A stretch of 26,459 nucleotides of DNA from a virus. The position numbers and the translations under genes were made by a program. The notes beneath the pieces were generated by a model, which ran no database searches, was not told the DNA's origin, and saw only the letters and a list, made by a program, of their open reading frames with translations. The DNA lies in IMG/VR virus record IMGVR_UViG_3300001846_000199, positions 1 to 26,459 of that record; one strand, 5' to 3'. This document shows positions 2,199 through 24,248 of the stretch, one piece after another. Position 1 is the stretch's first letter; each line of letters begins with the position of its first letter.

Positions 2199-2215
2199 TA
2201 TTAGCCAGACTAATT
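2199..2215. promoter_or_regulatory. 17-bp palindromic operator-like site, copy 1
   Basis: TATTAGCCAGACTAATT fits the recurring consensus TATTAGYnnnRCTAATA (ATTAG, five bases, CTAAT). It sits five bases after one gene and 29 bases before the start of the next, in one of the few gaps of this compact region. No good -35/-10 pair is visible at this copy. The same palindrome recurs at six other transcription-unit starts. Confidence 0.6.
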
Positions 2216-2243
2216 CATTTAACTGTAACCGAAAGGAGCACTA

Positions 2244-2453
2244 ATGATGAGCCGCGAACCGTGCCGCGTAAGCGACGACCCAAGTTACGACTACTCTGAT
2301 TACTGCGAAGGAACAGGTGTGTATGCACCATATCGTGATGATCACGATGCCGACGCTAAGTATGACGAATGGCGTGAAGCAAACCCCCGCCCGAGCGAGC
2401 TACCGAAAGGTGCCCTCGACCCATTCATAACCCCCTACGAAGGAGACAACTAA
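2244..2453 (+). CDS. Small very acidic unknown protein (69 aa)
   Basis: AAAGGAGCA lies just upstream of ATGATG; either Met could be used (2244 or 2247). The product is extremely rich in Asp, Glu and Tyr (DDPSYDYSDY, YRDDHDADAKYDEW) with a Pro-rich C-terminus, and looks low in regular structure. No family recognised. It follows the first palindromic site directly, and its stop overlaps the ATG of the MoxR-like ATPase (TAATG), so the two are co-translated. A small acidic partner or adaptor for the ATPase, or a nucleic-acid mimic, is possible but unproven. Confidence 0.65.
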   Translation: MMSREPCRVSDDPSYDYSDYCEGTGVYAPYRDDHDADAKYDEWREANPRPSELPKGALDPFITPYEGDN

Positions 2454-3451
2454 TGCGTACTATACGCCCATCCCAACTTGCGCCAGAGATCAAAGCCAAC
2501 GCAATGGCTGGCTTAGCAACAATGATCTGGGGCGCTCCTGGCGAAGGTAAGTCCGAAATCGTTTACCAAATCGCTGAAGAAATGAACGCGAAGCTGTTCG
2601 AAGTTCGCGCCAACCTATTCGACCCTGTAGATGTCCGTGGTGGCTTGAAAGTAGTTGAACAAAAAGACGGCACATACCGCACCAGGTATGGCGTGCCCGA
2701 AGACTACCCCGACTCCAACTACCAAGGCACCGTGATCATCTTCATTGACGAATTAAGTACCGCTCCCAAAGCAACTCAAAACTCATTCTTGCAACTGTTG
2801 ACCACTGGGAAAATCGGTACTTATCAAGCCCCACCAAACACGATCTTCATTGCCGCAGGTAACCGCGCAACAGATCGTGCTGCAGTTCACGAAATGCCGA
2901 CGCCAGTTAAGAATCGCTTTGCACACTTCACAGTAGAAGCGAATATCGATGACTGGGTAGCGTGGGCCGTGAACCATGACATCGATGCGTCGATCGTGAG
3001 CTTCTTGCGTTATCGCCCCCAACTGTTATCAGACGTTGACGCTACTCAGAATGCATTCCCAACACCTCGTGCTTGGGACTACGTGAGTCGCAAACTCCCG
3101 TTCATGAACGATGAGTTTTATGGCGTTGCATCACTAGTTGGTGACGGTGCCGCTGGCGAATACATCGCGTTCAAACAGATCTACCAAGATGTACCCGACG
3201 TTGATGACATCCTCGCTAAGCCAACCACAACCAAAGTACCAACTGGCACATCAGTTATGTACGCAGTTTGTGGGGCCTTAACTGCGCGTGTTAACGCAGC
3301 CAACTTTGAAGCAATCATGAAATACACCAAGCGCATGCCACCTGAGTATCAGGTAATTGTTGTGCGCGACTCGCTAGCAAAAGACAGGTCGCTCATGACG
3401 AGCCAAACCTTCACCAAATGGACTCAAGAAAACGCTGACGTACTTTTATAG
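2453..3451 (+). CDS. MoxR-family AAA+ ATPase
   Basis: A 332-residue AAA+ ATPase. It has a Walker A at residues 27-34 (GAPGEGKS), a Walker B at 95-100 (IIFIDE), sensor 1 Asn near 137 (AAGN) and an Arg-finger-like Arg at 155 (PVKNRF). The order and spacing match MoxR-like ATPases, which work with VWA-domain partners as chaperones or remodelling machines. A VWA/metallopeptidase protein follows two genes later (4375-5472), giving the usual MoxR-VWA pairing found in bacteria and in some phages. The start overlaps the previous stop (TAATG). The target of the phage-borne machine is unknown; assembly or activation of a viral or host metal-dependent complex is the general idea for the family. The ATPase identity is secure; the phage role is inferred. 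Confidence 0.9.
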   Translation: MRTIRPSQLAPEIKANAMAGLATMIWGAPGEGKSEIVYQIAEEMNAKLFEVRANLFDPVDVRGGLKVVEQKDGTYRTRYGVPEDYPDSNYQGTVIIFIDELSTAPKATQNSFLQLLTTGKIGTYQAPPNTIFIAAGNRATDRAAVHEMPTPVKNRFAHFTVEANIDDWVAWAVNHDIDASIVSFLRYRPQLLSDVDATQNAFPTPRAWDYVSRKLPFMNDEFYGVASLVGDGAAGEYIAFKQIYQDVPDVDDILAKPTTTKVPTGTSVMYAVCGALTARVNAANFEAIMKYTKRMPPEYQVIVVRDSLAKDRSLMTSQTFTKWTQENADVLL

Positions 3452-3462
3452 GACTTTTTATT

Positions 3463-3654
3463 ATGAAGAAATTATTAGTTGCAGTACTAGTTACTGCGTC
3501 ATTCTCGGCTTCTGCCTACTACTCATGCTTCTGGCAAAAAATTTCAGAGCAAACCGGTATGAACGGTCTGAAAATTTGCCAATGGAAATGCGGTTACGGC
3601 AGTGACGCTACATACACCACCACGTCCGGTTACGGATTTTGTCCAAACCCTTAA
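3463..3654 (+). CDS. Exported small Cys-containing protein (63 aa)
   Basis: The product opens with a classical signal peptide: a KK n-region, a hydrophobic core (LLVAVLVTASFS) and an Ala-Ser-Ala cleavage motif near residue 18. The mature part is about 45 residues with four Cys (SCFW, ICQWKC, GFC), enough for two disulfides in the periplasm. The AGGA site is weak and about ten bases from the ATG. It lies between a cytoplasmic AAA+ ATPase and a predicted DNA-modification protein, an unexpected place for a secreted protein. It recalls tiny Cys-containing exported proteins scattered through phage genomes, but I cannot name a family. Roles such as superinfection exclusion or envelope modification would fit and are untested. 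Confidence 0.72.
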   Translation: MKKLLVAVLVTASFSASAYYSCFWQKISEQTGMNGLKICQWKCGYGSDATYTTTSGYGFCPNP

Positions 3655-3666
3655 TAGGAGATTGTT

Positions 3667-4373
3667 ATGGCTTCAGTAAGAATGACCCAACAAATGCGGC
3701 ATGACATCAGCCGCGCCGCAGAGACCGCTTACGATACTGCTAACCCCGAACCTAAACCATCAACTGAGTTTGTTGACGGCTTAAAACAAGCCATTATAAA
3801 TTCACCCGAGCAAAAATTCTTTTGCGAGATGATTAAGCTTGGCTATGACCGTGGACTTGACAAGCGCCACGGCAAATCCCTTCTGCCTCAGAAAAACAAA
3901 GAGCCAGTCACTTCGATTGATTTGCGTCGGGCTAAAACTTCAAATATCTCCACAACAAAGACTATGAAGAGCACACTATTCATTTCAATACTGCGCTCGA
4001 CCCGTTCTACGTTACTGAGCAAACTCGTTACACTTGGGGCAACCCAAGCATCTACGTTCAAGACCTCGATCCAGCTGACCAACCTCAATTGCTCGCACAA
4101 CACGATGCATTGCTGATTGACAAGAAAGCTTGGTCAGACGCCAGATACAACTACAAACAATCGATCCGTAACTTGCTTGATAAATGTTCGACACTCAAGC
4201 AATTACTCGAGATCTGGCCCGCTGCTGAGTCACTTGTTGAATCAGACAAGCTTGCTCAAATGCACGTCAAAGTTACACGCAAGCAACGCGCGCAACAGGT
4301 CAGAGAAGAAATCGACTTTGATCCAACACTAGCCAATCAAACGGTACTAACTGCAAAACTGCTTGGAGGCTAA
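3667..4373 (+). pseudogene. Nmad5-like nucleotide-modification protein, reading frame interrupted
   Basis: The N-terminal half starts at 3667 (ATG after AGGAG) and reads MASVRMTQQMRHDISRAAET onward. It makes sense up to about 3935 (SIDLRRAK) and then turns into low-quality sequence ending at 4116. The C-terminal half is in the -1 frame. It is open from 3936 and reads NFKYLHNKDYEEHTIHFNTA, through LLAQHDALL, to STLKQLLEIWPAAESLV and ends at 4373. The join falls at an AAAA run (3934-3937): one extra A would restore a single product of about 235 residues. The 'LKQLLEIWPE'-type segment and the overall layout recall phage Nmad5 (nucleotide modification associated domain 5) proteins; moderate certainty. 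No classical -1 slippery heptamer is present. Either a true frameshift mutation, a homopolymer sequencing error or unusual recoding explains it. Confidence 0.6.
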
Positions 4374-4374
4374 T

Positions 4375-5472
4375 ATGTCAGCCGAAAGCGATATGCTCAA
4401 AGCGCGAGCACAACTACTGATGGATCAGCCCTTCTTTGGAGCCCTCGCGTTACGACTCAAACTTGTTCAAGACGATAACAACTGTGATACCGCGGCCACG
4501 GATGGTACGCGTCTTATCTACAACAGTAAGTTTATTGGCAAGCTAGATACCATCACTCGCAAAGGCCTCATTGCGCATGAAGTTATGCACTGCGTCTTCA
4601 ATCACATGACGCGTAGACAAAACCGCGACCAAAAAATGTGGAATATCGCGACTGACTATGCCATCAACAACCACCTAATCGATTGTGGCTTTGTGCTACC
4701 TGAAGGTGGTTTGGTTGATAAGCAGTATCAAGATATGACTGCCGAGAAAATCTACGCCAACCTCGATCACGAGAACCCACCCAAGCAATGTCCGTGGGGC
4801 ATGGTGCTCGATGCAGGCGCTGGCCAACTCGAATCAGGCTCCAATGCAGCACTTGAGTCTGAATGGCAAGTCGCTGTTACCCAAGCAGCTGAAGTTGCAA
4901 AACGCGCAGGCAAACTGCCAGGGGCAATGCAGCACTTCATCCAAGACATTATCAAACCAGTCGTGGATTGGCGGACTGTACTCTGGCCTTTTTGTACGGC
5001 ACTAACTAATGACGACTACAGTTGGCGCAAACCACATCGTGCATACATCAGTGAAGACGAATATCTACCAAGCATGCTTACTGAGGGTGCCGGTCACCTT
5101 GCAGTAGTCATTGATTCGTCCAGCTCTTGTGAGCACTACTGGAAACAGTTCATTAGCGAGATGGCTGCAATCCATTCGGAGCTACGTCCGACGCAGCTAA
5201 CTTTGTTGCATGTTGATACGGAAGTACATCATGTCGACGAAGTTGAGCCTGACGATATGTTTCCAGAACTAAAAGTACGAGGCGGTGGCGGTACAAAATT
5301 CAGCCCAGCATTTGATTACATCAATGAGCATTACCCAAATGTCGAAGCAGCTGTGTACCTTACTGATCTAGAGTCTCATGACTTTGGTGAAGAACCACCG
5401 TACCCAGTTCTCTGGGTTTCTACGGAGAGACACGAGGCTCCCTGGGGCCAGACCTGTTACATCACGCTATAA
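4375..5472 (+). CDS. Metallopeptidase/VWA-like protein (DUF2201 type), MoxR partner
   Basis: Start set at 4375 because GGAGG lies six bases upstream; 12 bases of upstream open frame contain that site. The 365-residue product has an N-terminal zinc-peptidase-like domain with HEVMH at residues 68-72, followed by an ATDYAINN segment that may supply a further ligand (Asp about 94). The C-terminal VWA-like domain carries the MIDAS signature: DSSSS (Asp247, Ser249, Ser251), Thr at about 307 in RGGGGT, and Asp at about 331 in LTDLE. This two-domain layout is that of the DUF2201 family, commonly encoded beside MoxR ATPases. The cognate ATPase is two genes upstream in the same operon. Whether it acts as a protease or only as a metal-binding adaptor cannot be told from sequence. 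The operon ends just after it at a palindromic site. Confidence 0.85.
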   Translation: MSAESDMLKARAQLLMDQPFFGALALRLKLVQDDNNCDTAATDGTRLIYNSKFIGKLDTITRKGLIAHEVMHCVFNHMTRRQNRDQKMWNIATDYAINNHLIDCGFVLPEGGLVDKQYQDMTAEKIYANLDHENPPKQCPWGMVLDAGAGQLESGSNAALESEWQVAVTQAAEVAKRAGKLPGAMQHFIQDIIKPVVDWRTVLWPFCTALTNDDYSWRKPHRAYISEDEYLPSMLTEGAGHLAVVIDSSSSCEHYWKQFISEMAAIHSELRPTQLTLLHVDTEVHHVDEVEPDDMFPELKVRGGGGTKFSPAFDYINEHYPNVEAAVYLTDLESHDFGEEPPYPVLWVSTERHEAPWGQTCYITL

Positions 5473-5505
5473 TTAGTTGAACTAATTTATTAGCTGCGAT
5501 ACTAT
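5471..5505 (+). promoter_or_regulatory. Promoter overlapping palindromic operator, copy 2
   Basis: AATTAGTTGAACTAATT (5471-5487) is a complete 17-bp palindrome around a central G. A promoter-like pair overlaps it: -35 TTGAAC (5477-5482), 17-bp spacer, -10 TACTAT (5500-5505). A further ATTAG half-site lies in the spacer (5489-5493). A protein on the palindrome would cover the -35 box, so repression is the simplest reading. The next gene starts at 5526, about 14 bases after the expected transcription start. Confidence 0.68.
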
Positions 5506-5525
5506 TTCGCTCTTACTAGGAGAGT

Positions 5526-5846
5526 ATGATGAGTATTGATGACGCTACACCAGCCGAGTGGGACAGATCCACTCAAAGATTTAAACCAACGAGAGAATAC
5601 GTTGACCCCTACGACCAACCCAAAGTTGATCTAGTCAACAACCCTGACCACTACAACGCCGGAAAGCTCGAGTGTATCGATGCGATTGAAGCATCTATGT
5701 CCCCCGAAGCTTTCAAAGGCTACCTCAAAGGCAACGTTGAGAAATACGTTTGGAGAATGTCCTACAAAGGCAAACCTGTTGAAGACCTACGCAAAGCTGC
5801 GTGGTACCTCAACCGCCTTATCGAGGCCGAGGTCAAAACCAGATGA
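5526..5846 (+). CDS. DUF3310 family phage protein (106 aa)
   Basis: AGGAG lies just upstream of ATGATG. Residues about 38-100 carry the DUF3310 pattern: VNNPDHYNAGKLECIDAIEA, then a FKGYLKGNVEKYVWR helix and a KAAWYLNRLI helix. DUF3310 proteins are small and very common in tailed phages next to replication or nucleotide-metabolism genes; their biochemical function is not firmly known to me. The N-terminal ~35 residues are variable and charged. The gene opens the replication operon behind the promoter at 5471-5505 and overlaps the next gene by four bases. Confidence 0.85.
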   Translation: MMSIDDATPAEWDRSTQRFKPTREYVDPYDQPKVDLVNNPDHYNAGKLECIDAIEASMSPEAFKGYLKGNVEKYVWRMSYKGKPVEDLRKAAWYLNRLIEAEVKTR

Positions 5847-6067: not shown

Positions 6068-6239
6068 TCTAGATGACGATCAAATTCATCCTGAGTTCCA
6101 CACCTATGCAACTGTGTGGATTAAGTCACGCATGCCTGACCGCTACGAAGAACTTAAGGCGCGTTACAAAGCAATCGAAGGAGAAATTATGGCTCAACAC
6201 GAGTGCAATGCAGCACAAAGTGAGGAGCTACCCTTTTGA
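6033..6239 (+). CDS. Small acidic unknown protein (68 aa)
   Basis: A strong GGAGGG site (about 6020-6025) precedes the ATG by roughly eight bases, which supports the 35-base overlap with the previous gene. The product is acidic and mostly helical, with DYFKAIPDLDDDQIHPEFHT near the start and a RYEELKARYKAIEGEI helix. No family recognised. Its TGA overlaps the TTG start of the DNA polymerase, so polymerase translation is probably coupled to it. Confidence 0.68.
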   Translation: MDTKDYFKAIPDLDDDQIHPEFHTYATVWIKSRMPDRYEELKARYKAIEGEIMAQHECNAAQSEELPF

Positions 6240-8047
6240 CTTTAATTACTCTTGATTTTGAAACTTACTACGACAACAAACTGTCGTTAACCAAGATGAC
6301 CACGATGGACTACGTCCGACACGAGAAGTTTAAAGTGTGGGGCGTAGGCATCAAGATAAATCATGAAGACGCTGAATGGTATGGCGAAGATGAGTGTGAA
6401 GACGCATTGCGGGCCCTGGACTGGAACGACGCAACGCTTGTGTGCCACAACACTCCATTCGATGGCTACATACTGACTAGATACTATGGGCTAGTACCAA
6501 AGTATTACGTCGATACCGCGGCGATGAGCAGAGGCCTCTTTCCGACGCAAAGTGCCCGTCTCAAAGACGTAGCTATACGTTGTTTCCCCGATGACGAGAC
6601 AATGCGTAAAGGCGAAGAACTTGCTGACGCTAAAGGTATCTACGACCTTGACCCAGAACTAGAAGAGTCGATCGCTGGCTACTGTATCCAAGACGTAAAC
6701 CTAACGTATTGGATTTACCAACACATGATGGCCTTTGGTATGCCGCAGTCAGAAATGGATCTCATCGACATGACGTGTCGCATGTTCTGTGAACCAAAGC
6801 TGATCGTAGACCGCGAAGCACTCACCACGTTTCGTGATGAAACAATCGCAACCAATGAAGCGCTTATCAATGCAGCAGGTGTAGACCGCAAAGTGTTGAG
6901 CTCCAATCAGCAATTTGCAGAGTACATCTACACGCTTGGTCTCGTGCCACCTACCAAAAAGTCCCCTACTACAGGTCAGAACATCCCCGCTCTCGGTAAA
7001 AGTGACAAGGCATTCCAGCAGATGCAAAAAATGTACCCCCAGTTTCAACATGTATGGGACGCGCGTCGTGCCGTAAAGAGCCGCATTGCAGAGACCAGAG
7101 CCCAACGTTTCTTAGATGCTGCACATGAGGACTGTACTATTTCAGTACCACTTCGGTACTACGCAGCTCACACCGGTCGCTTCGGTGGTACAGAAAAAAT
7201 CAACATGCAAAACATGCCGCGCAACTCTGAGCTGCGGAAAGCGTTGTGTGCCCCGCCTGGGCACCTCGTGTTTGTTGCTGACTTATCAAACATCGAGGCA
7301 CGCATGCTTGCATGGCTCGCTGATGAAGATGACCTGCTTGACCAGTTCAGAAATGGTGACGATATATACAGCAACTTAGCCAGTCGTATATATGGCTTTA
7401 AAGTAAACAAACATGATCACCCGACGGAACGTTTCGTTGGTAAGACCGCTGTGTTGGGCTTGGGTTATGGCATGGGCGCTGCAAAGTTCCAAGCAACTTT
7501 GGAATCAGGTGCTATGGGCCCTTCGATGACGTTCTCTATGGATGAAGCCTTTGAAGTAGTGAATACATATCGTATGACATTCCAAGGCATACCAGTGCTT
7601 TGGCAGAAACTCGAGCTCAAACTAGCAAACACAATCAGTCCAACATATGAGGAAGAATGGCACGGCCTCCGTTTCCATCAAGGCAAAATACATCTGCCTA
7701 ATGGCCTTGCTCTGCATTACCCCAACTTACGATTCGAAGGCGGCAAGCTCGTCTACGACGGTGCTCGCCATACAGAAACCACTTGGGGCGGACGTATTAC
7801 AGAGAACGTTGTGCAGGCGTTAAGCCGACTGGTAGTCACCGACGCCATGCTTCGCATCGAGGCAGACCCTACTCTTGATGCAAATGTAGTGCTAACCGTA
7901 CACGATGAAGTAGTTTTAATTAGCCAAGCTAATAATCCTGATGTTACAATGGACAAACTTATAACTCATATGTGTACACAACCATCCTGGGCTAGCGACA
8001 TTCCCCTAGATGCCGAGGGAGGTTATGCAACTAACTATAGTAAGTGA
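6236..8047 (+). CDS. Family A DNA polymerase with 3'-5' exonuclease domain
   Basis: A 603-residue replicative polymerase. The exonuclease domain has DFETYY (Asp7, Glu9), HNTPFD (71-76) and YCIQD (Tyr149, Asp153). The polymerase domain has motif A VADLSNIEAR (Asp349), motif B RFVGKTAVLGLGYG (Arg399, Lys403, Tyr411) and motif C VHDEV (556-558). There is no 5'-nuclease domain, as usual for phage enzymes. The start must be the TTG at 6236: the first in-frame ATG would remove the exonuclease catalytic residues, and GAGGAG lies eight bases before the TTG. The residue equivalent to E. coli Pol I Phe762 is Leu407, a state reported to be associated with temperate phages. It overlaps the previous stop (TTGA) and is coupled to the CsrA-like gene downstream. 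Confidence 0.95.
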   Translation: MTLITLDFETYYDNKLSLTKMTTMDYVRHEKFKVWGVGIKINHEDAEWYGEDECEDALRALDWNDATLVCHNTPFDGYILTRYYGLVPKYYVDTAAMSRGLFPTQSARLKDVAIRCFPDDETMRKGEELADAKGIYDLDPELEESIAGYCIQDVNLTYWIYQHMMAFGMPQSEMDLIDMTCRMFCEPKLIVDREALTTFRDETIATNEALINAAGVDRKVLSSNQQFAEYIYTLGLVPPTKKSPTTGQNIPALGKSDKAFQQMQKMYPQFQHVWDARRAVKSRIAETRAQRFLDAAHEDCTISVPLRYYAAHTGRFGGTEKINMQNMPRNSELRKALCAPPGHLVFVADLSNIEARMLAWLADEDDLLDQFRNGDDIYSNLASRIYGFKVNKHDHPTERFVGKTAVLGLGYGMGAAKFQATLESGAMGPSMTFSMDEAFEVVNTYRMTFQGIPVLWQKLELKLANTISPTYEEEWHGLRFHQGKIHLPNGLALHYPNLRFEGGKLVYDGARHTETTWGGRITENVVQALSRLVVTDAMLRIEADPTLDANVVLTVHDEVVLISQANNPDVTMDKLITHMCTQPSWASDIPLDAEGGYATNYSK

Positions 8048-8052
8048 TTCAG

Positions 8053-8238
8053 ATGCCACGATTGGTACTGACAAGGAAACTCAACGAAAACATCATCATT
8101 CATGATGATGACGGCGTTCTGGCGAAAATAAAAATTTCAAAGGTTGACAGGAATCAAGTTCGACTCACGTTCGAAGCAGATAACGAGATCAAAATTGATC
8201 GACAGGAAGTATTCGACAAAAACGCTCCTACTAATTAA
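8053..8238 (+). CDS. csrA-like: CsrA-like RNA-binding translational regulator
   Basis: A 61-residue protein with the CsrA fold signature: LVLTRKLNENI at the N-terminus (compare LILTRK..E.I), IKI and NQVRLTFEA strands, and IKIDRQEVF, whose Arg50 matches the RNA-binding Arg44 of E. coli CsrA. CsrA dimers bind GGA in mRNA leaders and block or alter translation. The frame can also start at GTG 8044, overlapping the polymerase stop as GTGA; the ATG at 8053 best matches the family N-terminus. There is no strong ribosome-binding site, so coupling to the polymerase is likely. A palindromic site follows directly after its stop. Whether it acts on phage or host mRNAs is unknown. Confidence 0.88.
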   Translation: MPRLVLTRKLNENIIIHDDDGVLAKIKISKVDRNQVRLTFEADNEIKIDRQEVFDKNAPTN

Positions 8239-8239
8239 T

Positions 8240-8257
8240 TATTAGCTATGCTAATAT
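8240..8257 (+). promoter_or_regulatory. Palindromic operator-like site, copy 3, with extended -10
   Basis: TATTAGCTATGCTAATA (8240-8256) has 7-bp arms. Its right arm forms an extended -10 box, TGCTAATAT (8249-8257), although no good -35 is visible. It lies directly behind the CsrA-like gene and 22 bases before the primase-helicase start, where a strong GGAGGAG site follows. Confidence 0.65.
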
Positions 8258-8278
8258 GGTTGCCCTGTAGGAGGAGCT

Positions 8279-10783: not shown

Positions 10784-10800
10784 TATTAGTTATACTAATA
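10767..10800 (+). promoter_or_regulatory. Promoter overlapping palindromic operator, copy 4
   Basis: TATTAGTTATACTAATA (10784-10800) is a palindrome with 7-bp arms. A -10 box TATACT (10791-10796) lies within it, 18 bases after TTGCTT (10767-10772). The site is at the end of the primase-helicase gene and 25 bases before the Cas4-like nuclease gene. A bound protein would mask the -10 box. Confidence 0.66.
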
Positions 10801-12372: not shown

Positions 12373-12505
12373 TGATTTGAAAGAGCTGTTATTCGGCCAC
12401 ATACGGAGAATATTTGATGAGACAGATGTATCGGAAAAAAGACGGACACCTAATCCCAGTAAAGAATGTCCACCTACCTCAAACGAGGTATCTGAAAAGC
12501 GTTAA
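12362..12505 (+). CDS. Small unknown hydrophilic protein (47 aa)
   Basis: GAGGA lies about nine bases before the ATG. The product starts MTNDDLKELLFGHIRRIFDE, probably one amphipathic helix, then a polar Pro/Ser tail. Its 3' part overlaps the next gene by 89 bases in another frame, an unusually long overlap, so it may be a short leader-type ORF or spurious. No family recognised. Confidence 0.38.
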   Translation: MTNDDLKELLFGHIRRIFDETDVSEKRRTPNPSKECPPTSNEVSEKR

Positions 12506-13154
12506 GCCTCCCAGCACCAACATGTTGAAACGAGGCAAGCTAAACAAAAAGCTTGGAGACAAAGTTGCAGTGAGAATGTGGAAAGGCATGACCATGTACT
12601 CCCTCACTCTCGAGGAGCGTGCTACGTGTCCTGAGTACTGCGAACAGTGGCAAAACTGCTACGGCAACAATATGCCGTTCGGTCACCGTTTTGATCACAC
12701 TGATCCAGCATTCAAACCAATGTTGGAGCTGCAACTAGAAGAGCTTAATCGCCAGCATCCCGAAGGTTTCGTTGTCAGACTGCATGTCCTGGGTGACTTC
12801 TATGACGCGCTTTACATCACGTCATGGCAGATCTGGCTACACAAGTTTCCTAACTTGCATGTGTTCGGATACACACACCACGAGTCAGAGTCCACGCTTG
12901 GGGACATGATCAATAACGTCAATCGTATTTACCCTGATCGGTTTCGCGTCCGCTTCAGTGATGATCGAAAAGTTGATTTCAGTGCGCGTGTTATTAGCGA
13001 ACCACCCACTCGCACTCATTCTATGCAGTACACACGAGAAAGTGGGATGGATTGGCGCGTTGTCTGCCCAGAGCAGTTGAACCGAACAGAGAGCTGCACA
13101 ACATGCGGATATTGCTGGTCTAGCGACAAACCTATTATTTTTATTGAACACTAG
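12417..13154 (+). CDS. GP88-like phage protein with Cys clusters (245 aa)
   Basis: Start at the ATG 12417 with GGAG about ten bases upstream; a TTG lies one codon earlier. An N-terminal Cys motif reads TCPEYCEQWQNCYGNN (Cys71, Cys75, Cys81). The middle has alternating strands and helices (VVRLHVLGDFYD, NLHVFGYTHHE, RFRVRFSDD). A C-terminal Cys cluster is TESCTTCGYCWSS (Cys227, Cys230, Cys233), with Cys217 just before it. This resembles the phage GP88 family, whose Cys pattern and barrel-like middle hint at a metal or Fe-S enzyme distantly like radical-SAM proteins. Its function is unknown. The family call is moderate; a metal site is likely because the Cys are clustered at both ends. Confidence 0.68.
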   Translation: MRQMYRKKDGHLIPVKNVHLPQTRYLKSVKPPSTNMLKRGKLNKKLGDKVAVRMWKGMTMYSLTLEERATCPEYCEQWQNCYGNNMPFGHRFDHTDPAFKPMLELQLEELNRQHPEGFVVRLHVLGDFYDALYITSWQIWLHKFPNLHVFGYTHHESESTLGDMINNVNRIYPDRFRVRFSDDRKVDFSARVISEPPTRTHSMQYTRESGMDWRVVCPEQLNRTESCTTCGYCWSSDKPIIFIEH

Positions 13155-13171
13155 TATTAGTAGGGCTAATT
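13144..13171 (+). promoter_or_regulatory. Palindromic operator-like site, copy 5
   Basis: TATTAGTAGGGCTAATT (13155-13171) fits the consensus and lies against the ATG at 13172. A TTGAAC (13144-13149) is 17 bases before TAATTA (13167-13172), the same geometry as copy 6, but transcripts from it would start inside or after that ATG. The palindrome also contains the AGGG ribosome-binding site of the next gene, so binding or RNA pairing could affect its translation. Confidence 0.55.
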
Positions 13172-13348: not shown

Positions 13349-13373
13349 TCCTTTTTATTAGCTGTGCTAATAT
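13345..13373 (+). promoter_or_regulatory. Promoter overlapping palindromic operator, copy 6
   Basis: -35 TTGATC (13345-13350), 17-bp spacer, extended -10 TGCTAATAT (13365-13373). The palindrome TATTAGCTGTGCTAATA (13356-13372) covers the -10 box. This is among the best promoter/operator arrangements in the window. It faces the helicase gene, whose start is about 13 bases after the expected transcription start. Confidence 0.72.
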
Positions 13374-15128: not shown

Positions 15129-15155
15129 ACATGAATCATGACGAGAGAAAATATT

Positions 15156-15845
15156 ATGTCTAAGACAGCATTAGCAGTAAAAACCGACAACCTTGTAGCA
15201 TCAACTGACAAGCTACCCGCTCACCTCGTAGGTATTGATGGCGGCCGTGGTAACGAGAACGTGGGTCAAAACGTACAGATTCCACGCGTCAAGCTGTTAC
15301 AAAAAATGTCAAACGAAGTAGATAAGCATCACGCTGCCTACATCGAAGGTTGTGAACCAGGGCATCTGGTCAACACCCTAACCAACCACAACTACGGCAA
15401 TGACTTGTATTGCATCAGCTTGCACTTCAAGACTGAGTTTGTTGTGTGGCGTTCGTTAGATGCGGGCGGCGGTTACGGTGGCGCATTTGAGTCGCAAGCT
15501 GCGGCACAAGAATACGTTGACGCGCAAGACAAACCGTCTGACTACGACATCAACGAAACTCACGCACACATCATCCTGATCAAAGATCCAGAGACTGGTG
15601 AGCTCGAGCGCTCCCCCGCCATCATGGACTTTGCTAGCTCCAAGCTTCGTGTATCAAAAGCATGGAACTCACAGATTGGCATGAAAGGTGGCGATCGATT
15701 CGCTGGCTTGTGGAAAGTTTCTGGCGTTCCTACCGAGAACAAAATGGGCAAAGCCTTCATGAATTGCGAAGTCTCGTTTGTCGGCTGGGCCCAAGAAGAA
15801 GACTACAAAACTGCGGAGGCTTTGTACGAGCAGTATTCCAAATAA
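15156..15845 (+). CDS. Conserved phage protein, putative ssDNA-binding/recombination accessory (229 aa)
   Basis: Start set at ATG 15156 (MSKTALAVKTDNL), with GAGAG nine bases upstream; an in-frame ATG at 15138 would add six residues. The core 'VQIPRVKLLQKMSNEV ... CISLHFKTEFVVWR' and the later 'PAIMDFASSKLRVSKAWNSQ' recur, to my memory, in many marine phage proteins of unknown function located near replication or recombination genes. A ssDNA-binding or DNA-end-handling role fits the context but is inferred. Beta-rich with an acidic C-terminal end (AQEEDYKTAEALYEQYSK), as is common in single-stranded DNA-binding proteins. Confidence 0.6.
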   Translation: MSKTALAVKTDNLVASTDKLPAHLVGIDGGRGNENVGQNVQIPRVKLLQKMSNEVDKHHAAYIEGCEPGHLVNTLTNHNYGNDLYCISLHFKTEFVVWRSLDAGGGYGGAFESQAAAQEYVDAQDKPSDYDINETHAHIILIKDPETGELERSPAIMDFASSKLRVSKAWNSQIGMKGGDRFAGLWKVSGVPTENKMGKAFMNCEVSFVGWAQEEDYKTAEALYEQYSK

Positions 15846-15931: not shown

Positions 15932-16366
15932 ATGAACGAACATAGCTTTGTTAGGTCAATACATAACGCGCTTCACCCTGATGTGTACAAATGGAAAATC
16001 CATGACACGTATACGGGAGGTGTGCCTGACGCCATGTATGCAGGGCCTGCGGGTGTGCTCTTTGTTGAATACAAGTACTTAAAATCTCTCCCAAAAAAGG
16101 ACACAACCGTGATTCGTCATTCGTTATCCGCGCTTCAACAGGCCTGGTTAGAGCGCATGTCAGGAAGTACACCTGTCGCACTAATATTAGGCTGTGAAGA
16201 TACCGCACTAATAATAGTTGACGATTTCGCAGCTAATATATATAAATATAACTATGTAGAAAAAGCAATCCCACGCAAGCAGGTAGCTGCGTGGATCTAC
16301 GACATAACACACTCAGGAAGAGCATCTAATGAAAAAAGCCAGCGAGTTACCAGCAGCCGTGAATAA
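15932..16366 (+). CDS. PD-(D/E)XK nuclease, VRR-NUC/resolvase-like (144 aa)
   Basis: Start placed at ATG 15932 (MNEHSFVRSI); the in-frame TTG at 15905 lies within a hairpin and adds no motif. The catalytic pattern is short and clear: GGVPD (Asp33), then a hydrophobic strand VLFVEYKYLK with Glu46 and Lys48. The length and layout suit small phage nucleases of the VRR-NUC or Holliday-junction-resolvase-like kind. It would complement the Cas4-like exonuclease and SNF2 helicase in recombination or genome processing. Its last 38 bases overlap the XRE regulator gene, and promoter elements for that gene lie within its 3' half. Confidence 0.78.
   Translation: MNEHSFVRSIHNALHPDVYKWKIHDTYTGGVPDAMYAGPAGVLFVEYKYLKSLPKKDTTVIRHSLSALQQAWLERMSGSTPVALILGCEDTALIIVDDFAANIYKYNYVEKAIPRKQVAAWIYDITHSGRASNEKSQRVTSSRE
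16181..16246 (+). promoter_or_regulatory. Near-consensus promoter with CTAAT half-sites before the XRE gene
   Basis: -35 TTGACG (16218-16223), 17-bp spacer, -10 TATAAA (16241-16246), inside the nuclease gene and 82 bases before the XRE regulator start. Half-sites of the 17-bp palindrome surround it: CTAATATTAG (16181-16190), a CTAAT within ACTAATAATAGT (16208-16219), and AGCTAAT in the spacer (16231-16237). This would allow the regulator to control its own gene. Confidence 0.55.
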
Positions 16367-16907
16367 CTTACGACGGATCTGGAACGAAAAGAAAGCCGAA
16401 ATGAAGTTTACCCAGGTACAAGCCGCAGAAAAGCTTGGGTGGACACAAGGCGCTATCTCACACTACCTAAACAACATTACCGAACTGGGCCCCGCCGCCA
16501 CGATTAAGTTCGCCAATTTTCTCGACGTTGATCCAAGTGAAATCGACCCCGAAGTCACTGAGCATCTACCAAACATCTACACTCGGGTGATCAAATACGA
16601 CATCGGCAATCTGAAAAAACCCATCAACCGGAAACAATTTCATAAAGAAGTGAAGTCCCAGTTCTGGGTTGAAGCTTTAGCCTCAGATTTCCCTTCAGAT
16701 ATTGTTGTGGAAGGAGCACAGTTTATAGGAGTTTGTGCTCTGCGAGTATGTGTACTCAAAGACCACCCAGACGCTAAAGTTCTGCTAGTCAAAGAGCGCA
16801 AGAAAAAGCGCAGCTATGTCTGCAGAGCAGACGCACTACCCGCTAAAGACAAAATCGAAAACCTGTGGGCTGTACTAGAAGTTTCTGTCCGAACTGCTGT
16901 CGCTTAA
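16329..16907 (+). CDS. XRE-family HTH transcriptional regulator (candidate phage repressor)
   Basis: 192 residues; AGGAAGAG lies just before the ATG. Residues 27-49 form an HTH_3/XRE motif (FTQVQAAEKLGWTQGAISHY), followed by LGPAATIKFANFLDVDPSEI, typical of the lambda-repressor-like fold. The C-terminal ~100 residues (ending ENLWAVLEVSVRTA) are in the place of a LexA/CI peptidase domain, but I do not see the expected Ser and Lys catalytic context, so autocleavage is uncertain. It lies last-but-one on the + arm, not divergent from an early operon as in lambda. It is the only clear XRE-type DNA-binding regulator in the window and therefore the best candidate ligand for the 17-bp palindromes. 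Confidence 0.8.
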   Translation: MKKASELPAAVNNLRRIWNEKKAEMKFTQVQAAEKLGWTQGAISHYLNNITELGPAATIKFANFLDVDPSEIDPEVTEHLPNIYTRVIKYDIGNLKKPINRKQFHKEVKSQFWVEALASDFPSDIVVEGAQFIGVCALRVCVLKDHPDAKVLLVKERKKKRSYVCRADALPAKDKIENLWAVLEVSVRTAVA

Positions 16908-16985: not shown

Positions 16986-17014
16986 GTAATAAAAAAACAT
17001 TGTAAATTTATTAC
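16986..17014. repeat. AT-rich inverted repeat upstream of the excisionase-like gene
   Basis: GTAATAAA (16986-16993) and TTTATTAC (17007-17014) are perfect 8-bp arms 13 bases apart. They lie in the 169-base gap between the XRE gene and the excisionase-like gene. The gap contains no clear promoter. A regulator or excisionase binding site is possible. Confidence 0.4.
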
Positions 17015-17076
17015 CTCCAGTATTAAATGGTTGAAGTCCCACCTACAAACAACTTTTGTCTAGGAAGATTTCAGGT

Positions 17077-17283
17077 ATGGAAGCGATACTACTTGAGCGC
17101 TATGGCCCGTTCATGGATTTAGAAGAATTAGCCGCGCTAATGAGAATCAAAAAGCAGTCGATGTACCAACAGATTTATCGCGGCCAGCTTGATGTCCCTC
17201 ACGTACGCCGAGGTAAGAAGTACCTTTTTCCCACTCAGGAAGTAGCAAGATATTTTACTGAACAGATAAGTGTGCCAGGGTAA
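17077..17283 (+). CDS. xis-like: Excisionase-like HTH protein (68 aa)
   Basis: Start at ATG 17077 with AGGA about ten bases upstream; a TTG at 17056 would add seven residues. The product has a MerR/HTH_17-like winged-helix layout: MDLEELAALMRIKKQSMYQQ as the helix-turn-helix, then YRGQLDVPHVRRGKKYLFPT as the wing, then EVARYF. Small proteins of this kind next to an integrase gene commonly act as excisionases, or as recombination directionality factors. It ends three bases from the convergent integrase stop, an unusual tail-to-tail arrangement. Function inferred from fold and position. Confidence 0.7.
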   Translation: MEAILLERYGPFMDLEELAALMRIKKQSMYQQIYRGQLDVPHVRRGKKYLFPTQEVARYFTEQISVPG

Positions 17284-17286
17284 GCC

Positions 17287-18282
17287 TTACATCCCAGCTA
17301 AATCTTCCGCCCTCAAGTTAACGTACCGAGATAATTGATCGAGTGTGCGGTGCCCTGATACAACCCGCACTTGTTCAACGCGCATTCCTCTCTCAAACAT
17401 ACGGCTAATTGCCTCATGTCGAAGATCATGGAAGCGCAAATCCTTGATGCCTATTTTGTTGGTCATTCGGGCAAATTTGTCCGAAATTGACTCGCTCCTA
17501 CGTACATGAAACAGGTTATCCCCTTGCTGAGTTGTGTTTCGTGCGCGTAGGAGCGCCTCTCTAACGCCCTTCAGAAGGGGTATTTTCGACTTACTCCTAC
17601 CACCCTCTGCCTTCTTATCTTTTCGCCACAGGTGGATTACACCGGCATCCTCGTCGATGTCTGACCACTTGAGTCGGTGTATTTCCCCCTGACGCATGGC
17701 AGATTCGACAGCAATGTCTATTGCTGTACCAATCCAGTGCTTACCAGCAGCTTCCATTAATGCGTCGTACTCACCTGGGGCGAGTCGACGCTCCCTTCGC
17801 TTACTACCCATAATGATCTTTTTCTTTTGCAGCTCATCGATAGCCTGGGCAATGACGTTCTCTCTCAGGGTAAGTCTGCTGTTATCGACAGCTTGCTTCA
17901 GATAATACATTTGAGTTTGGAGTGTGCTTGCCACAACTCGCTTACGCCGATATGCAGCGAAGTCGAGTACCTCGTCATAGGTCAGGTCATGAATGGAGAC
18001 ACCCGCAAAGTAGACTTTGATTTGATTCAGCTGTGTCCGCTTGGGGCCAGCTACCTCGAGGCCGAACCGCTCGAAGCTATGGATAAGATCATCGACTAAT
18101 GAATCTATGGTCTCTGACCGCGAACCGCGATTCGGGAGCAACAGTCCGAGATCAATGTCTTCTTCCTTGCGCCGCGCCCAAGCCTTGGCTGCAGCGTGAG
18201 ACTTGAACGTCTCGTTTACCCTTACTTTCTTATACCGTACTTCAACGTACCAACTATTTCCTCGTTTCCGTATCGATGCCAC
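17287..18282 (-). CDS. int: Tyrosine recombinase integrase
   Basis: 331 residues with a GTG start at 18282 and GGAG about eight bases upstream. The N-terminal ~50 residues (IRKRGNSWYVEVRYKKVRVN) resemble the arm-type DNA-binding domain, followed by a core-binding region (about 55-155). The catalytic domain shows Arg197 (AMRQGEI), Lys233 (SKSKIPL), His285 and Arg288 (HDLRHEA), His311 (SGHRT) and Tyr320 (SRYVNL), the complete set. It would insert the phage at a host tRNA gene through the attP core at 18361-18380, 79 bases before its own start. The gene reads away from attP, so in the prophage its upstream sequence beyond the core would be host DNA. Confidence 0.95.
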   Translation of the reverse strand: MASIRKRGNSWYVEVRYKKVRVNETFKSHAAAKAWARRKEEDIDLGLLLPNRGSRSETIDSLVDDLIHSFERFGLEVAGPKRTQLNQIKVYFAGVSIHDLTYDEVLDFAAYRRKRVVASTLQTQMYYLKQAVDNSRLTLRENVIAQAIDELQKKKIIMGSKRRERRLAPGEYDALMEAAGKHWIGTAIDIAVESAMRQGEIHRLKWSDIDEDAGVIHLWRKDKKAEGGRSKSKIPLLKGVREALLRARNTTQQGDNLFHVRRSESISDKFARMTNKIGIKDLRFHDLRHEAISRMFERGMRVEQVRVVSGHRTLDQLSRYVNLRAEDLAGM

Positions 18283-19944: not shown

Positions 19945-20699
19945 ACGACGTACCCAAGTAATTCTGTTCTGTGCCCTTCCCACACTCGGTCAACGAGCGG
20001 AGCGCCGGCATAAGTGTTCCCCCCGAAAGAAACAATGGAGGTACTAAACGTATTGTTCGTGTAATCCCACTTACCGACTCTTGATGACGCTGAGTACTGC
20101 CGGTCAGCTGCAGGGCCAAAAGTTCGATATCTGTAAGCGCCATAGCCGTGAGCGTAGGCATACAAATTCAACAAGTCCGTTTGACTAGCAGCTGTGTGCC
20201 ATGTAGCAGCACCACTGCTCGATGCAGTCACGTTGTGGTGTCGCGCATTGCGAACACGAAACGTTGGTTTCTCGGTCGTAAATGTCAGCTGACCAGAAGT
20301 GTTGTAGACATTTAGTCCGTAATTAGATGGGTTCTGATTACTTATCAGTCCATCATTAAACAAGTTACACCGTTGAATGACCGCGTAATCAACAGCTTCT
20401 GTTGCAACAACAATTGACCCGTAAGAACAGTTAGCGTAAAAACGCCGATACCTTGTCCCACTAGATGTTGTGAAATCCGAATACCGGCTAAACAGTCTGT
20501 AGTTCGTGGTCGTAGTCGGGTTATTCGGTTTAGCTACAATCAAAATGTCGTCAGGGTAGCTGTTAGGTATGGTGGCGTAGCTTTGTGTCCATGCATTACT
20601 CGCCGGTACTACACCGGTCGCCAACACCTGATAACCGATTGTCGTTTCATCTATCTGAGTAAACCCAGAATTGTTGTAAGCCTGTATCCCCCACGCCAT
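19941..20699 (-). CDS. Short tail-fibre/tip protein (252 aa)
   Basis: Begins MAWGIQAYNNSGFTQIDETT, the same opening as its neighbour (MAWGMQVFKQDGTIRLDPGD), so the two are paralogous at the N-terminus. The rest is beta-rich, with many Thr, Ser, Asn, Tyr and Gly and little charge, as in phage distal fibre proteins. It overlaps the stop of the previous gene by one base and the start of the chaperone gene by four. The chaperone directly after it supports an assignment as a host-contacting fibre component. The exact position in the virion cannot be told. Confidence 0.72.
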   Translation of the reverse strand: MAWGIQAYNNSGFTQIDETTIGYQVLATGVVPASNAWTQSYATIPNSYPDDILIVAKPNNPTTTTNYRLFSRYSDFTTSSGTRYRRFYANCSYGSIVVATEAVDYAVIQRCNLFNDGLISNQNPSNYGLNVYNTSGQLTFTTEKPTFRVRNARHHNVTASSSGAATWHTAASQTDLLNLYAYAHGYGAYRYRTFGPAADRQYSASSRVGKWDYTNNTFSTSIVSFGGNTYAGAPLVDRVWEGHRTELLGYVV

Positions 20700-21001
20700 T
20701 ATGTATTCAACTTAAATACGTTAACTTGGTAATAAATTGGCGAACCCGTAGACGAGTAGCCGTTAAGTAGCGTCAACGTAACCGTGTTGCTTGTTGATAC
20801 TGCTTTCAAATAATCAGAGACCGGCGTGACATCGATGCCCCAATCTCCATTCGTAATGTCGTATCCACCCCCAACACTTAATGATGTCGAGTTACCTTGA
20901 GCTAATGTCCCGCTGAAATATTTGTAGTGCATTACCTGACGGTCGCCTGGATCTAAACGAATCGTGCCGTCTTGCTTGAAAACTTGCATTCCCCAAGCCA
21001 T
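20699..21001 (-). CDS. Small tail-tip protein, paralogue of the next gene (100 aa)
   Basis: Begins MAWGMQVFKQDGTIRLDPGD; the motif MAWG-x-Q with a later G...D...Q is shared with the 252-residue protein that follows. Beta-rich, with a YDITNGDWGIDVTP element and a short hydrophobic end (YYQVNVFKLNT). Its ATG overlaps the stop of the gpJ-like gene (TGATG), so it is co-translated. Probably a minor tail or fibre component that caps or decorates the tip; inferred from location and paralogy. Confidence 0.65.
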   Translation of the reverse strand: MAWGMQVFKQDGTIRLDPGDRQVMHYKYFSGTLAQGNSTSLSVGGGYDITNGDWGIDVTPVSDYLKAVSTSNTVTLTLLNGYSSTGSPIYYQVNVFKLNT

Positions 21002-22443
21002 CAGAGGTCACCTATCTTTACTCGCAGAGCGCCTGTCGTGTCATAAACTAAAATTTTTGTGCCTTGAATAACCATACGACCGCCAGAAGCGGCACTTGCT
21101 AAGTTGATGGTTGCGCCCGTACCTACAAGGTTTAGCTTATTAACACCGATAGAACCCGCACCTATCCGATCCGCACTAAGGGTGCCAGTCGTTATTTTGT
21201 CTGCGCCTAAATTCCCAATCTTTGCATTGGTGATCGAAGCGTCTTGAATCATTGCCGACTTAAGATAGGTGTCACCGTTATAAATAAAGAACGGAACGTT
21301 ATCGCTAGAGGGCGTGGTTGTACCCAACCCGTCGCCCGTATCTGCTGGGTCGATGACCGCGAACTTATCTGCTCGGACAATGAACGCAGACGTTGGAGTC
21401 GCGCCCGTTGTCGTGCTGCTTAAACCGAAGCCCGCAACGTGACCGTTGCTGTCTATTTTGACTGAGTACTGACCTTGAAGGCCACTTATAGAAGTAGCGT
21501 TCGTACTAATGCTAGTCGTGTGACCATTAACAGTACTACTTACATTACTAATCTGACTTGAAAGCGAAGAGTCTGCGTTAGCGCGCGTTATGGACTCATT
21601 GCTTATAGCAGCTGAATTACTTCCAACAGAAGCTTGCAAATTAGTTATATCGGTTGTCAGTGCAGAGTCTGCGTTAGCGCGCGTTGTGGACTCAGCACTA
21701 AGTTGTGCTGACGTTGCCGCACCATTAGCTGTTGTCTCTACAGCACCCATGCGAGTTAATAAGCTGTCGCCGGTATAGGTCGAATCGTAACCAGTAAAAG
21801 TTTCTAAATCAGGGATTAAGGCTATAGGCTCGGCAAGAGATTGAGCCAACTCACTGGAGGTAATTGCGTTTGCTAAGACATTAAGTTGATAAGCCACATC
21901 AGTAGCTGTCTCCCCTAATGTGCCGGTCGTGTTGTTGTAGGGCCCAGTTACGGCGCTTGTTGACACGTGTCTAACCCAATAATATCGAGAAGCATCGGAG
22001 CCGACGGGGTCAATGTATGTGAACCCGTTTACTGCACCAATCAGTTGTGCATCGCCAAGGCTGTTCGTGTCGTGTGCCCAAACTTCAGTAAACGCGTAGT
22101 TTGAAAATGTAGCGGCGTCCCAAGTTAGAATGATTATGCTGTAAGCACCATTAGCAGTCAGATTCGTAGGCGCGGGCGGCACAGTTGTATCGGTCTCGGG
22201 GGTGCTTGGGCCAAAATCAGTGCCGTCGCCGGTGTTATTTATATTAAAAGGTATAGATTTAAGGTCTATTGCTAGCCCAGAAGCTAACAACTCACGAAGC
22301 GTTACGGCTCTATCTTTCGGATCACCTTTTCGGCCAAGGCGAATCTCTAAAGCTTCTGCCAGCTTGGCCAAGTAATTTCTTGTTTCAGGCGATACATCTT
22401 TGGGCACCGCCGGAAAACCAGGAACATGAGTCGGCTTAGTCAT
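21001..22443 (-). CDS. gpJ-like tail-tip/host-specificity protein with FN3 and DUF1983-like domains
   Basis: 480 residues. The N-terminal ~85 residues contain a helix (EALEIRLGRKGDPKDRAVTL) and a Pro/Thr linker. A fibronectin type III-like domain follows at about 90-170 (PPAPTNLTANGAYSIIILTW). Next is a coiled coil at about 235-325 with a repeated unit (ESTTRANADSALTTDI and ESITRANADSSLSSQI). The C-terminal region (about 325-435) resembles the DUF1983 domain of lambda gpJ: QYSVKIDSNGHVAGFGL, SAFIVRADKFAVID, and VPFFIYNGDTYLKSAMIQDA followed by ITTGTLSADRI. It is much shorter than gpJ (over 1100 residues), so it represents only the distal part. The likely role is receptor contact at the tail tip. 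Overlaps both neighbours by one to four bases. Confidence 0.82.
   Translation of the reverse strand: MTKPTHVPGFPAVPKDVSPETRNYLAKLAEALEIRLGRKGDPKDRAVTLRELLASGLAIDLKSIPFNINNTGDGTDFGPSTPETDTTVPPAPTNLTANGAYSIIILTWDAATFSNYAFTEVWAHDTNSLGDAQLIGAVNGFTYIDPVGSDASRYYWVRHVSTSAVTGPYNNTTGTLGETATDVAYQLNVLANAITSSELAQSLAEPIALIPDLETFTGYDSTYTGDSLLTRMGAVETTANGAATSAQLSAESTTRANADSALTTDITNLQASVGSNSAAISNESITRANADSSLSSQISNVSSTVNGHTTSISTNATSISGLQGQYSVKIDSNGHVAGFGLSSTTTGATPTSAFIVRADKFAVIDPADTGDGLGTTTPSSDNVPFFIYNGDTYLKSAMIQDASITNAKIGNLGADKITTGTLSADRIGAGSIGVNKLNLVGTGATINLASAASGGRMVIQGTKILVYDTTGALRVKIGDL
21568..21694. repeat. 31-bp direct repeat inside the tail-tip gene
   Basis: Positions 21568-21598 and 21664-21694 match except for one base, 96 bp apart. 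They encode the repeated unit ES(T/I)TRANADS, a 32-residue step in the coiled coil. It reflects internal duplication and a possible site for copy-number change of the fibre stalk. Confidence 0.75.
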
Positions 22444-24218
22444 GACGACTGAATCTCCTCAAGCGTTTGCGCGATGCATACAGAATTTAGATCTGCACTC
22501 TGAACTTCTATTTCCCACTCTTGGCCCACCACAGCAGGCAACCGAAAGACCGGCTGTTTATTACCTTTTACAGATGCTGTAGAAATAGCAGGTACGGTAA
22601 AGTTAAGTGAGAAATCTGAATCAGCTGTTTTGCTGACTACTGCATGGAAAATTAGCGTTCCATCTGCCCACACTTTGACAGTCGCTGGGAAGCCATACTG
22701 GTTAGCATCAATACTCATCCAGCCCATCGATATGGGCTTATCAGTTTTAAAAATCTTGCTTTTGAACGTAGCGTCTAGGGTCTGGGCTGCTACTTCGCCA
22801 TCACCTACAGCTTCGAATTCTTGAATGCGCGTGTCGCAAAGCGTGTACAGCTGGTTGTCTTTAGGATCTGTATACCCACCGACTACTGCTCCCCCGTTAG
22901 AGTTGTTGGAGTTATCAATTAAAATCAGAGCCGTTTCGTCTGAACGGGGGTCATAAACAAAACCACCTTGAGAATGAAACGCGACATACATTCCTTCATG
23001 TCTAAAAGCTTTGTAATCTTTCGGACGATAATCACCCGTAGCATCTCGCCATTGTGCAGGCTTAATAAGCCCATCGGTTAAGAGCTTTCCTTGCCCTCCT
23101 TCAACAGCACATAGACCATCTGCCCCCGCATAAATAACGTACTGACCCATGTCCACTACACTGTGTTCGTTAAGACATGCTTGCGCCAGATCTATGCGGG
23201 TCGCGGTCATTGCACTGGGGTCAGTACCAGAGATGAAATAAGGCTGGCCGTCTGTAAGAGCAGTAACACCACCACTAGTAGAGGCTATAGCGACAATGTC
23301 GTCCTCAGTTGTAATGCGATAAGCAATCGGCCAAGCATGTGGAAGAAACGCCTCGCTTAAACAGAACCGCTTGCCAGTAAAACCAGCCATTACACCTTGG
23401 GCCAGCGGTATCAAACCCTTCAAAGGGCCATCAGGATATAGAGAAGAGTCATCGTCTGGCGGCCCTATCCAGCCTGCACTAGGGATAACTTCCCCGAGCT
23501 CGTCTGCATTTTTAGTATCTGTGTAGCTGGTCGTAGAAATGGGACGTTCATTTACAAACTGAAATGCTGCGCTAGTGGAGCCTGAGTTAGATCTATATAT
23601 GCGTATTACTGCCCCATTACCTAGATTGTGGTTACTGCCAACGTTTAGTGCAGGTATAGATAAAGTTGCAGTCTGGCTGTCGTCCATTGAAACAATACCA
23701 GATGGCGCGCTTGGAGGGCCTTCGCGCCCATCAACAGTGACGTACGTAAACACGTACGAAACATCATTCGGGGTTAGTGTGTCATCTGGAAGACCATTAA
23801 CCGTTACAGTAGCGAATGTATGCGGAGCAGGTACTCCCAGCCTGTATGAATTAGCTGGATAACCCGTGGCGGCACCAGAAATAATTGTTGATTGCCACCC
23901 TATGCGTGGGTAGTTTTGCCCCGTCCAATACAGGCGGTTCGTGGTGTCTCCTGGTATTGGGCCTTTTGCAACCGATATGTCGGTCTGATCCCACTGCAAC
24001 CAAACACTCGTACCGTCCTGTTTGTAGTACAAGTAGATTGAGCGCCGAGCAGATGATGCAACGCTTCCCGCGCTTGTAGGCGGGTGAGGTGGTCGGCCTC
24101 GAAGGTTTCCAGTGTCCAGCTTTGCATTCTTTACTAACTGACCGAACTGTTCCGCCAGCAATCGAGGACTTATTGCGGGGGCCATGCCGCCGAATCTGTC
24201 TAATTTAAAGTAAGTCAT
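22440..24218 (-). CDS. Large phage structural (tail/hub) protein (592 aa)
   Basis: The ATG follows GAGG by five bases; ATGA overlaps the gpJ-like gene. It opens with FGGMAPAISPRLLAEQFGQL and NAKLDTGNLRG, which recalls marine phage structural proteins that, to my memory, start with a motif like FGGM.P......A. The remainder is beta-rich and Gly-, Thr- and Pro-rich, with FN3-like YVFTYVTVDGREGPPSAPS and repeated blade-like strands (VVDMGQYVIYAGADGLCAVE). A beta-propeller hub like podovirus P22 gp10-type tail proteins is one possibility. I cannot tell podovirus from siphovirus here. The gene starts just behind palindromic site 7 and heads the tail operon that ends at the HNH-like gene. Confidence 0.62.
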   Translation of the reverse strand: MTYFKLDRFGGMAPAISPRLLAEQFGQLVKNAKLDTGNLRGRPPHPPTSAGSVASSARRSIYLYYKQDGTSVWLQWDQTDISVAKGPIPGDTTNRLYWTGQNYPRIGWQSTIISGAATGYPANSYRLGVPAPHTFATVTVNGLPDDTLTPNDVSYVFTYVTVDGREGPPSAPSGIVSMDDSQTATLSIPALNVGSNHNLGNGAVIRIYRSNSGSTSAAFQFVNERPISTTSYTDTKNADELGEVIPSAGWIGPPDDDSSLYPDGPLKGLIPLAQGVMAGFTGKRFCLSEAFLPHAWPIAYRITTEDDIVAIASTSGGVTALTDGQPYFISGTDPSAMTATRIDLAQACLNEHSVVDMGQYVIYAGADGLCAVEGGQGKLLTDGLIKPAQWRDATGDYRPKDYKAFRHEGMYVAFHSQGGFVYDPRSDETALILIDNSNNSNGGAVVGGYTDPKDNQLYTLCDTRIQEFEAVGDGEVAAQTLDATFKSKIFKTDKPISMGWMSIDANQYGFPATVKVWADGTLIFHAVVSKTADSDFSLNFTVPAISTASVKGNKQPVFRLPAVVGQEWEIEVQSADLNSVCIAQTLEEIQSS

Positions 24219-24231
24219 AGTACCTCTATTT

Positions 24232-24248
24232 TATTAGCTGGACTAATA
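24232..24248 (-). promoter_or_regulatory. Palindromic operator-like site, copy 7, ahead of the tail operon
   Basis: TATTAGTCCAGCTAATA on the - strand, between the glycosyltransferase stop and the structural gene start (14 bases away). A TTGCAG lies upstream with possible -10 boxes TAATAA or TAAAAT, but a start there would leave almost no leader, so the promoter call is weak. It is the only standard copy on the - arm. Confidence 0.62.

Follow-up and report, generated by a model that had tools for sequence, protein, structure and literature searches.

A palindrome built into promoters across an uncultured temperate phage, and its probable CI-type repressor

The palindrome and the genes around it

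The stretch of DNA analysed here, referred to below as the window, is the linear 26,459-bp IMG/VR virus record IMGVR_UViG_3300001846_000199, and our subject is a palindrome with the core ATTAG-N5-CTAAT that recurs along it, together with the gene of an XRE/CI-type DNA-binding protein (16329-16907, plus strand; 192 amino acids; Pfam HTH_3, E=2.4e-8, above the cut-off) that we propose as its binder. None of 50,697 cultured phages matches the window closely at the DNA level, and its nearest cultured relatives, judged by the primase, are KPP25 and phiR18 (~33% identity) and phiA008 (29%). A tyrosine integrase encoded on the minus strand (17287-18282; PF00589, E=1.2e-20; phrog_1, E=1.1e-41) suggests a temperate lifestyle, and an excisionase-like HTH_17 protein is encoded on the plus strand (17056-17283). 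For comparison, we gathered 14 viral loci via the XRE protein and 51 via the primase.

The core occurs in ten exact copies in the window. A preliminary description of this DNA had listed seven sites, and the exact core was found at every one of them (2200, 5472, 8241, 10785, 13156, 13357 and 24233, the listed starts lying one base earlier). The full 17-mer with TA...TA ends that it had proposed is exact at four of the seven (TATTA-N7 count = 4) but not at the remaining three. Its statement that all sites are intergenic holds for the listed seven, but three further exact cores lie inside open reading frames (ORFs), at 7919, 17127 and 26218, and the one at 7919 is constrained at the DNA level. 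Two weaker copies are present at 5489 and 17010. Under an order-3 Markov model, 200 simulations gave a mean of 0.03 cores and a maximum of 2, compared with the ten observed. Other gapped 5-mer palindromes in the window reached at most 2 copies each, save for words overlapping the core (4 each), and the reversed but not complemented control pattern had 0 copies. A chance origin is rejected by the Markov expectation and the reversed-pattern controls; the palindrome is real and far above chance.

The sites are described here from left to right, on the plus strand unless stated otherwise. The first (2199-2215, TATTAGCCAGACTAATT, exact core) occupies the gap 2195-2243 upstream of a small ORF at 2244. 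The second (5471-5487, exact core) lies over the -35 box of a promoter, TTGAAC-17-TACTAT, for the gene at 5526, with TTGAAC in the palindrome centre and TACTAT 17 bp further; the layout with TTGAR in the centre also occurs in the contigs G015, G018 and G025. A weaker site with 2 mismatches and a variant right half-site (5489-5503, ATTAGCTGCGATACT) overlaps the -10 box of the same promoter, 17 bp from the site at 5472, and recurs at that junction in relatives. Inside the DNA polymerase ORF, the site at 7918-7934 (exact core at 7919) is followed by an extended -10 element, TGTTACAAT, at ~7942-7950. The centre of the site at 8240-8256 lies 31 nt upstream of the primase-helicase start codon, and the site in the gap between primase and exonuclease (10784-10800) is accompanied by TATACT or TAATAC as -10 and TTGCTT as -35.

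Further right, the site after the GP88-like gene (13155-13171) has TTGAAC at -19, and that at 13356-13372, with TTGATC-17-TAATAT, stands upstream of an SNF2-type helicase operon whose gene order is helicase, 14763, 15138, VRR-NUC and xre. The gap between xre and hth17 holds a degenerate site (17010-17024, ATTACCTCCAGTATT), and about a dozen relatives have a site in the same gap. The exact core inside the HTH_17 ORF (17127-17141) is weakly conserved and of uncertain function, and raised codon constraint was not seen there. On the minus strand, the site at 24232-24248 is upstream of the leftward internal-virion-protein gene (22440-24218) with TTGCAG-17-TAAAAT, and an exact core of uncertain function lies inside the tail-side ORF 25822-26424 (26218-26232). 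The promoter-like boxes that had been noted at 5471, 10784 and 13356 were recovered, since -35/-10 elements coincide with all three sites and a 17-bp spacing is read at 5471 and 13356.

Promoter architecture and conservation in relatives

To cover the variation among relatives, the site was generalised to AWTASY-N3-RSTAWT. All 23 records tested contain this form, in 2-15 copies each, compared with 0-2 for controls. The association with gaps that the preliminary description had drawn from one genome extends to its relatives: across 20 contigs (647 kb), the sites are 25x denser in gaps (118 sites in 52 kb) than in ORFs (53 in 595 kb), and the reversed control gave 2 in gaps and 7 in ORFs. The spacer is N3 in 171 copies, and other lengths reach at most 9 copies save N6 (26), many of which are of the 5489 type, N3 sites whose right half has changed to AGTACT or a similar sequence. 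The primase gene is flanked on both sides by the palindrome in most of 43 relatives, with a few of the upstream sites degenerate or absent, and flanking sites with changed bases are often still palindromic (AATACC-TAT-GGTATT in L043, L046 and L062). The same gene junctions are reused at near-fixed distances; in most contigs the helicase start follows the centre of its site by 29 nt, and the preceding stop codon lies ~9-12 nt ahead of that site. The lytic distant relatives KPP25 and phiA008 had 0 sites in the 32 kb scanned of each.

We then aligned 110 gap sites, each turned to read towards its downstream gene. Beyond the palindrome itself, positions -19 to -17 favour T-T-G and position +9 an additional T. 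Of the 110 sites, 38 have TTG at -19 from the centre, with no instance on the reverse strand; once similar upstream sequences are removed, the counts are 17 of 64 and 0. The right arm of the palindrome coincides with a -10 box, TAATAT, at 17-bp spacing from the -35 box. At capsid-gene loci, a wider set that is partly of the same clade, TTGCAT-17-TAATAT together with a site was found in 67 of 78. A simple sigma-70 scan was uninformative (11 matches vs 21.7 in shuffles), whereas the orientation-aware alignment was informative. The sites are promoter-operators, with the operator role itself predicted from their position and symmetry.

The capsid promoter is followed by a further conserved element. 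At least 120 viral contigs have a ~170-nt conserved leader RNA (CGGCCCGTAGCCGTAAAAAACGT...) that separates the operator-promoter from the gene for the major head protein (phrog_334); it lies outside the window, at loci L080, L083, L087, L095 and L112-L191 (for example L080:6470-6703, minus strand). Among 41 sequences, compensatory double changes were seen in 13 of 38 predicted pairs (e.g. C-G 21 / G-C 20), and two hairpins share an ACGATA-type loop. Searched against Rfam, the leader gave no match at the gathering threshold and, below it, one chance-level match only. Contigs carrying the capsid leader alone, in which no xre was seen, had 0 sites (G031, 30 kb; G032, G033, G039), and all of these are fragments. 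In L116, L119, L140, L163 and L177 the capsid promoter carries the palindrome GATACT-N6-AGTATC instead, with no ATTAG sites there, and in L145, L158 and L185 the half-sites at the capsid promoter are separated by an N2 spacer. These variant palindromes possibly reflect an immunity switch to another repressor.

The site inside the DNA polymerase gene falls at the peak of synonymous constraint in that gene (identity 0.94, z 4.4; mean identity 0.49). The codons ATT, GCT and AAT are essentially fixed where the amino acid is kept, whereas neighbouring codons drift, and the extended -10 TGNTACAAT follows the site in 33 of 33 distinct sequences. Since synonymous sites are constrained and TGNTACAAT is kept throughout, the DNA itself is under selection here. 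We place this element as a putative promoter for csrA and the primase, which would make it a plain example of a regulatory element sharing its DNA with a conserved enzyme gene. In the region 8044-8275, a csrA homologue (PF02599) directly precedes the primase. The primase ribosome site, CTGTAGGAGGAG, lies within GCTC...GAGC, is nearly word-for-word conserved in relatives and is a possible CsrA target; single-sequence folding around it was not significant.

The palindromes might also be read as RNA hairpins in 5' leaders, acting as attenuators, processing sites or CsrA targets, given that the sites lie just past stop codons, that many copies are perfect inverted repeats and that a csrA gene adjoins one site. 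However, at positions +-2, 35 of 144 non-redundant sites hold the unpairable C/A and 45 hold T/G, with Watson-Crick pairs in 64 against 72.3 expected, and mixed half-site types are frequent. Moreover, the right arm is the -10 box and would lie upstream of the predicted transcript start. Because the arms vary independently, we rejected the hairpin explanation as extremely improbable; such variation fits two protein subunits reading half-sites and does not fit a hairpin.

A candidate repressor and its predicted regulon

The xre gene is found at the same place in every contig long enough. The nearest solved relatives of its product are lambda CI N-terminal domains (phmmer against PDB sequences, 1.8e-4), and the N-terminal domain of XRE shares the lambda CI fold (VIA Z 12.4; 3kz3/1lmb Z ~12). 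Gln29 and Gln40, the equivalents of lambda Gln33 and Gln44, are invariant in 24 homologues; in lambda, these two residues contact operator A2. The remark in the preliminary description that 17 bp is the operator length of lambda-type repressors agrees with these data, as the geometry of the sites fits the CI-fold XRE protein that all sufficiently long contigs encode. For the C-terminal domain, the best VIA matches were the lambda CI C-terminal domain (Z 6.2, 79 residues, 3.5 A) and UmuD (Z 5.0), a weak likeness; Foldseek returned nothing below E=0.001, although a missing match does not exclude the fold. Looking for a Ser-Lys dyad in the 24 homologues, we found no conserved Ser, one invariant Pro and one nearly invariant Lys. 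Because the domain is without a conserved Ser, self-cleavage in an SOS response is unsupported. Whole-model VIA matches outside phage repressors (epoxidases, MPnS) were set aside as reflecting shared helix-turn-helix (HTH) domains only. Among cultured phages the XRE protein has one match only, a DicA-type protein of phage Rac-SA53.

We consider it likely that the palindromes constitute a genome-wide operator set of one dimeric repressor of the lambda CI/DicA type, the XRE protein being the likely binder. Each half-site, TAWTASY, would take one subunit on a 17-bp two-fold symmetric site such as TATTAGCTATGCTAATA. What the analysis shows directly is that the sites exist, are conserved, have symmetric half-sites and overlap promoters. 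Most sites are built into sigma-70 promoters, where they either lie between the -35 and -10 boxes, the right arm doubling as the -10 box, or cover the -35 box; since they lie inside promoters, a bound dimer would block RNA polymerase. In a lysogen, XRE would directly silence the early genes, replication, recombination, excision and the late structural operons, and the site in the xre-hth17 gap fits repression of the excisionase-like gene. As xre ends the helicase operon and this operon carries a site, negative autoregulation is likely. One lambda-like repressor thus probably switches off the whole virus at once, via almost all operons, in an uncultured temperate marine-type phage. The common operator or promoter element that had been suggested for this DNA stands as far as conservation, gap enrichment and promoter overlap are concerned, while XRE binding, the direction of repression and the role in lysogeny are predictions from sequence.

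Several observations weigh against this interpretation. No good promoter was found at the sites at 2200, 17127 and 26218 (a good -35 box was likewise not found at 2199-2215), no operator stands directly before xre and a divergent cI/cro switch was not seen. Half-site usage could not be predicted from variation in the recognition helix (p=0.18), as helix 3 hardly varies and therefore gave no covariation signal; the HTH of G011 is identical to that of L013, yet AATACC half-sites are frequent in G011. XRE, HTH_17 and the integrase occur together, so co-occurrence by itself cannot single out XRE, and, since helix variation is not predictive, the assignment rests on co-occurrence and geometry. An integrated prophage or host, sought with a single primase and a primase alignment, was found in none of 84,980 genomes, and lysogeny is therefore a prediction. 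As for the expression of the repressor itself, a segment of the VRR-NUC gene with strong synonymous constraint (16241-16268, plus strand), ~80 nt before xre, is a candidate repressor promoter without an operator. The strongest constraint of that gene is at 16247 (codon identity 0.96 vs a gene mean of 0.54). That a repressor-maintenance promoter lies here is a guess.

The uninformative helix-3 covariation and the co-occurrence of HTH_17 with XRE equally leave room for the promoter-linked sites to be real but bound by a host regulator, the HTH_17 protein or a phage protein encoded outside the window, possibly an activator. Palindromes between -35 and -10 boxes are also typical of MerR-type activators. 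However, MerR promoters have a spacing of 19-20 bp, whereas the promoters here keep the normal 17 bp; a two-fold symmetric 17-bp site with T-A ends suits a lambda CI-fold dimer; and excisionase HTH_17 proteins act at att sites. We regard another binder as unlikely and continue to favour the XRE protein.

The proposed XRE system shares with lambda CI a 17-bp two-fold operator starting T-A, a CI-fold N-terminal domain, the Gln pair and an operator over -35/-10 boxes. Lambda has two clustered operator regions, whereas here about 10-18 promoters across the genome, those of the late capsid genes among them, have a single site each; in addition, the C-terminal domain is weakly similar and without the conserved Ser-Lys dyad, and the divergent cI/cro pair is not seen. 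In phage P1, many dispersed operators likewise control operons all over the genome, but these 17-bp sequences are asymmetric and the repressor, C1, is no CI-fold XRE dimer. The DicA operator Oc, TTGTTAGTCATAACTAACAA, overlaps the dicC -10 box, and DicA bound Oc alone of three candidate operators (PMC3441716). The half-site TTAGT and the position over the -10 box of the controlled promoter resemble our sites, but the DicA site is 20 bp with an N4 spacer, compared with N3 here, and the XRE protein shares ~40% identity with the DicA-type protein over the HTH only.

Many dispersed sites, some inside ORFs, also recall the stoperators of L5-like mycobacteriophages, which halt elongation. L5-type phages carry up to 30 repressor sites across a temperate genome with a motif kept clade-wide, and their repressor is monomeric, acting on elongation (PMC6550527, PMC9283540). 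The stoperators known so far lack symmetry, measure 13 bp and mostly point the same way (PMC6550527), whereas the sites here are 17-bp palindromes at promoters with independently varying halves, and we judge a stoperator role very unlikely.

For the XRE reading, we see roughly an even chance that it holds in its most specific form: a CI-type protein without a conserved cleavage dyad, whose gene closes an early operon with an operator of its own in place of a divergent cI/cro switch, would hold the phage off via one cassette at 10-18 transcription units, including the operator-promoter inside the polymerase gene and the capsid promoter of the new structured leader RNA, in a clade without a cultured member. 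Dispersed repressor sites are already known from L5-like phages and P1, where they are asymmetric; here, within an uncultured clade, a lambda-type palindrome is repeated as a promoter cassette that serves early and late operons alike. If true, this would be a simple design for lysogeny, with one lambda-type operator at every promoter and no central switch or antitermination. The analysis offers a nearly complete and testable regulon, with promoters and directions, for widespread uncultured temperate phages, and the motif together with xre can serve as a marker for clade members and their transcription units in metagenomes.

Other conserved features of the window

A MoxR-type AAA ATPase and a phrog_1314 protein, which we take to have a vWA/metallopeptidase-like domain, are encoded near each other at 2453-5472. 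A member of the Gene product 88 family (PF17338) is encoded at 12414-13154 and adjoined by two operator sites. Very high synonymous constraint was observed at the start of this GP88-like gene (0.97; 12441-12470) and at the start of the 15138 gene (0.93; 15138-15185).

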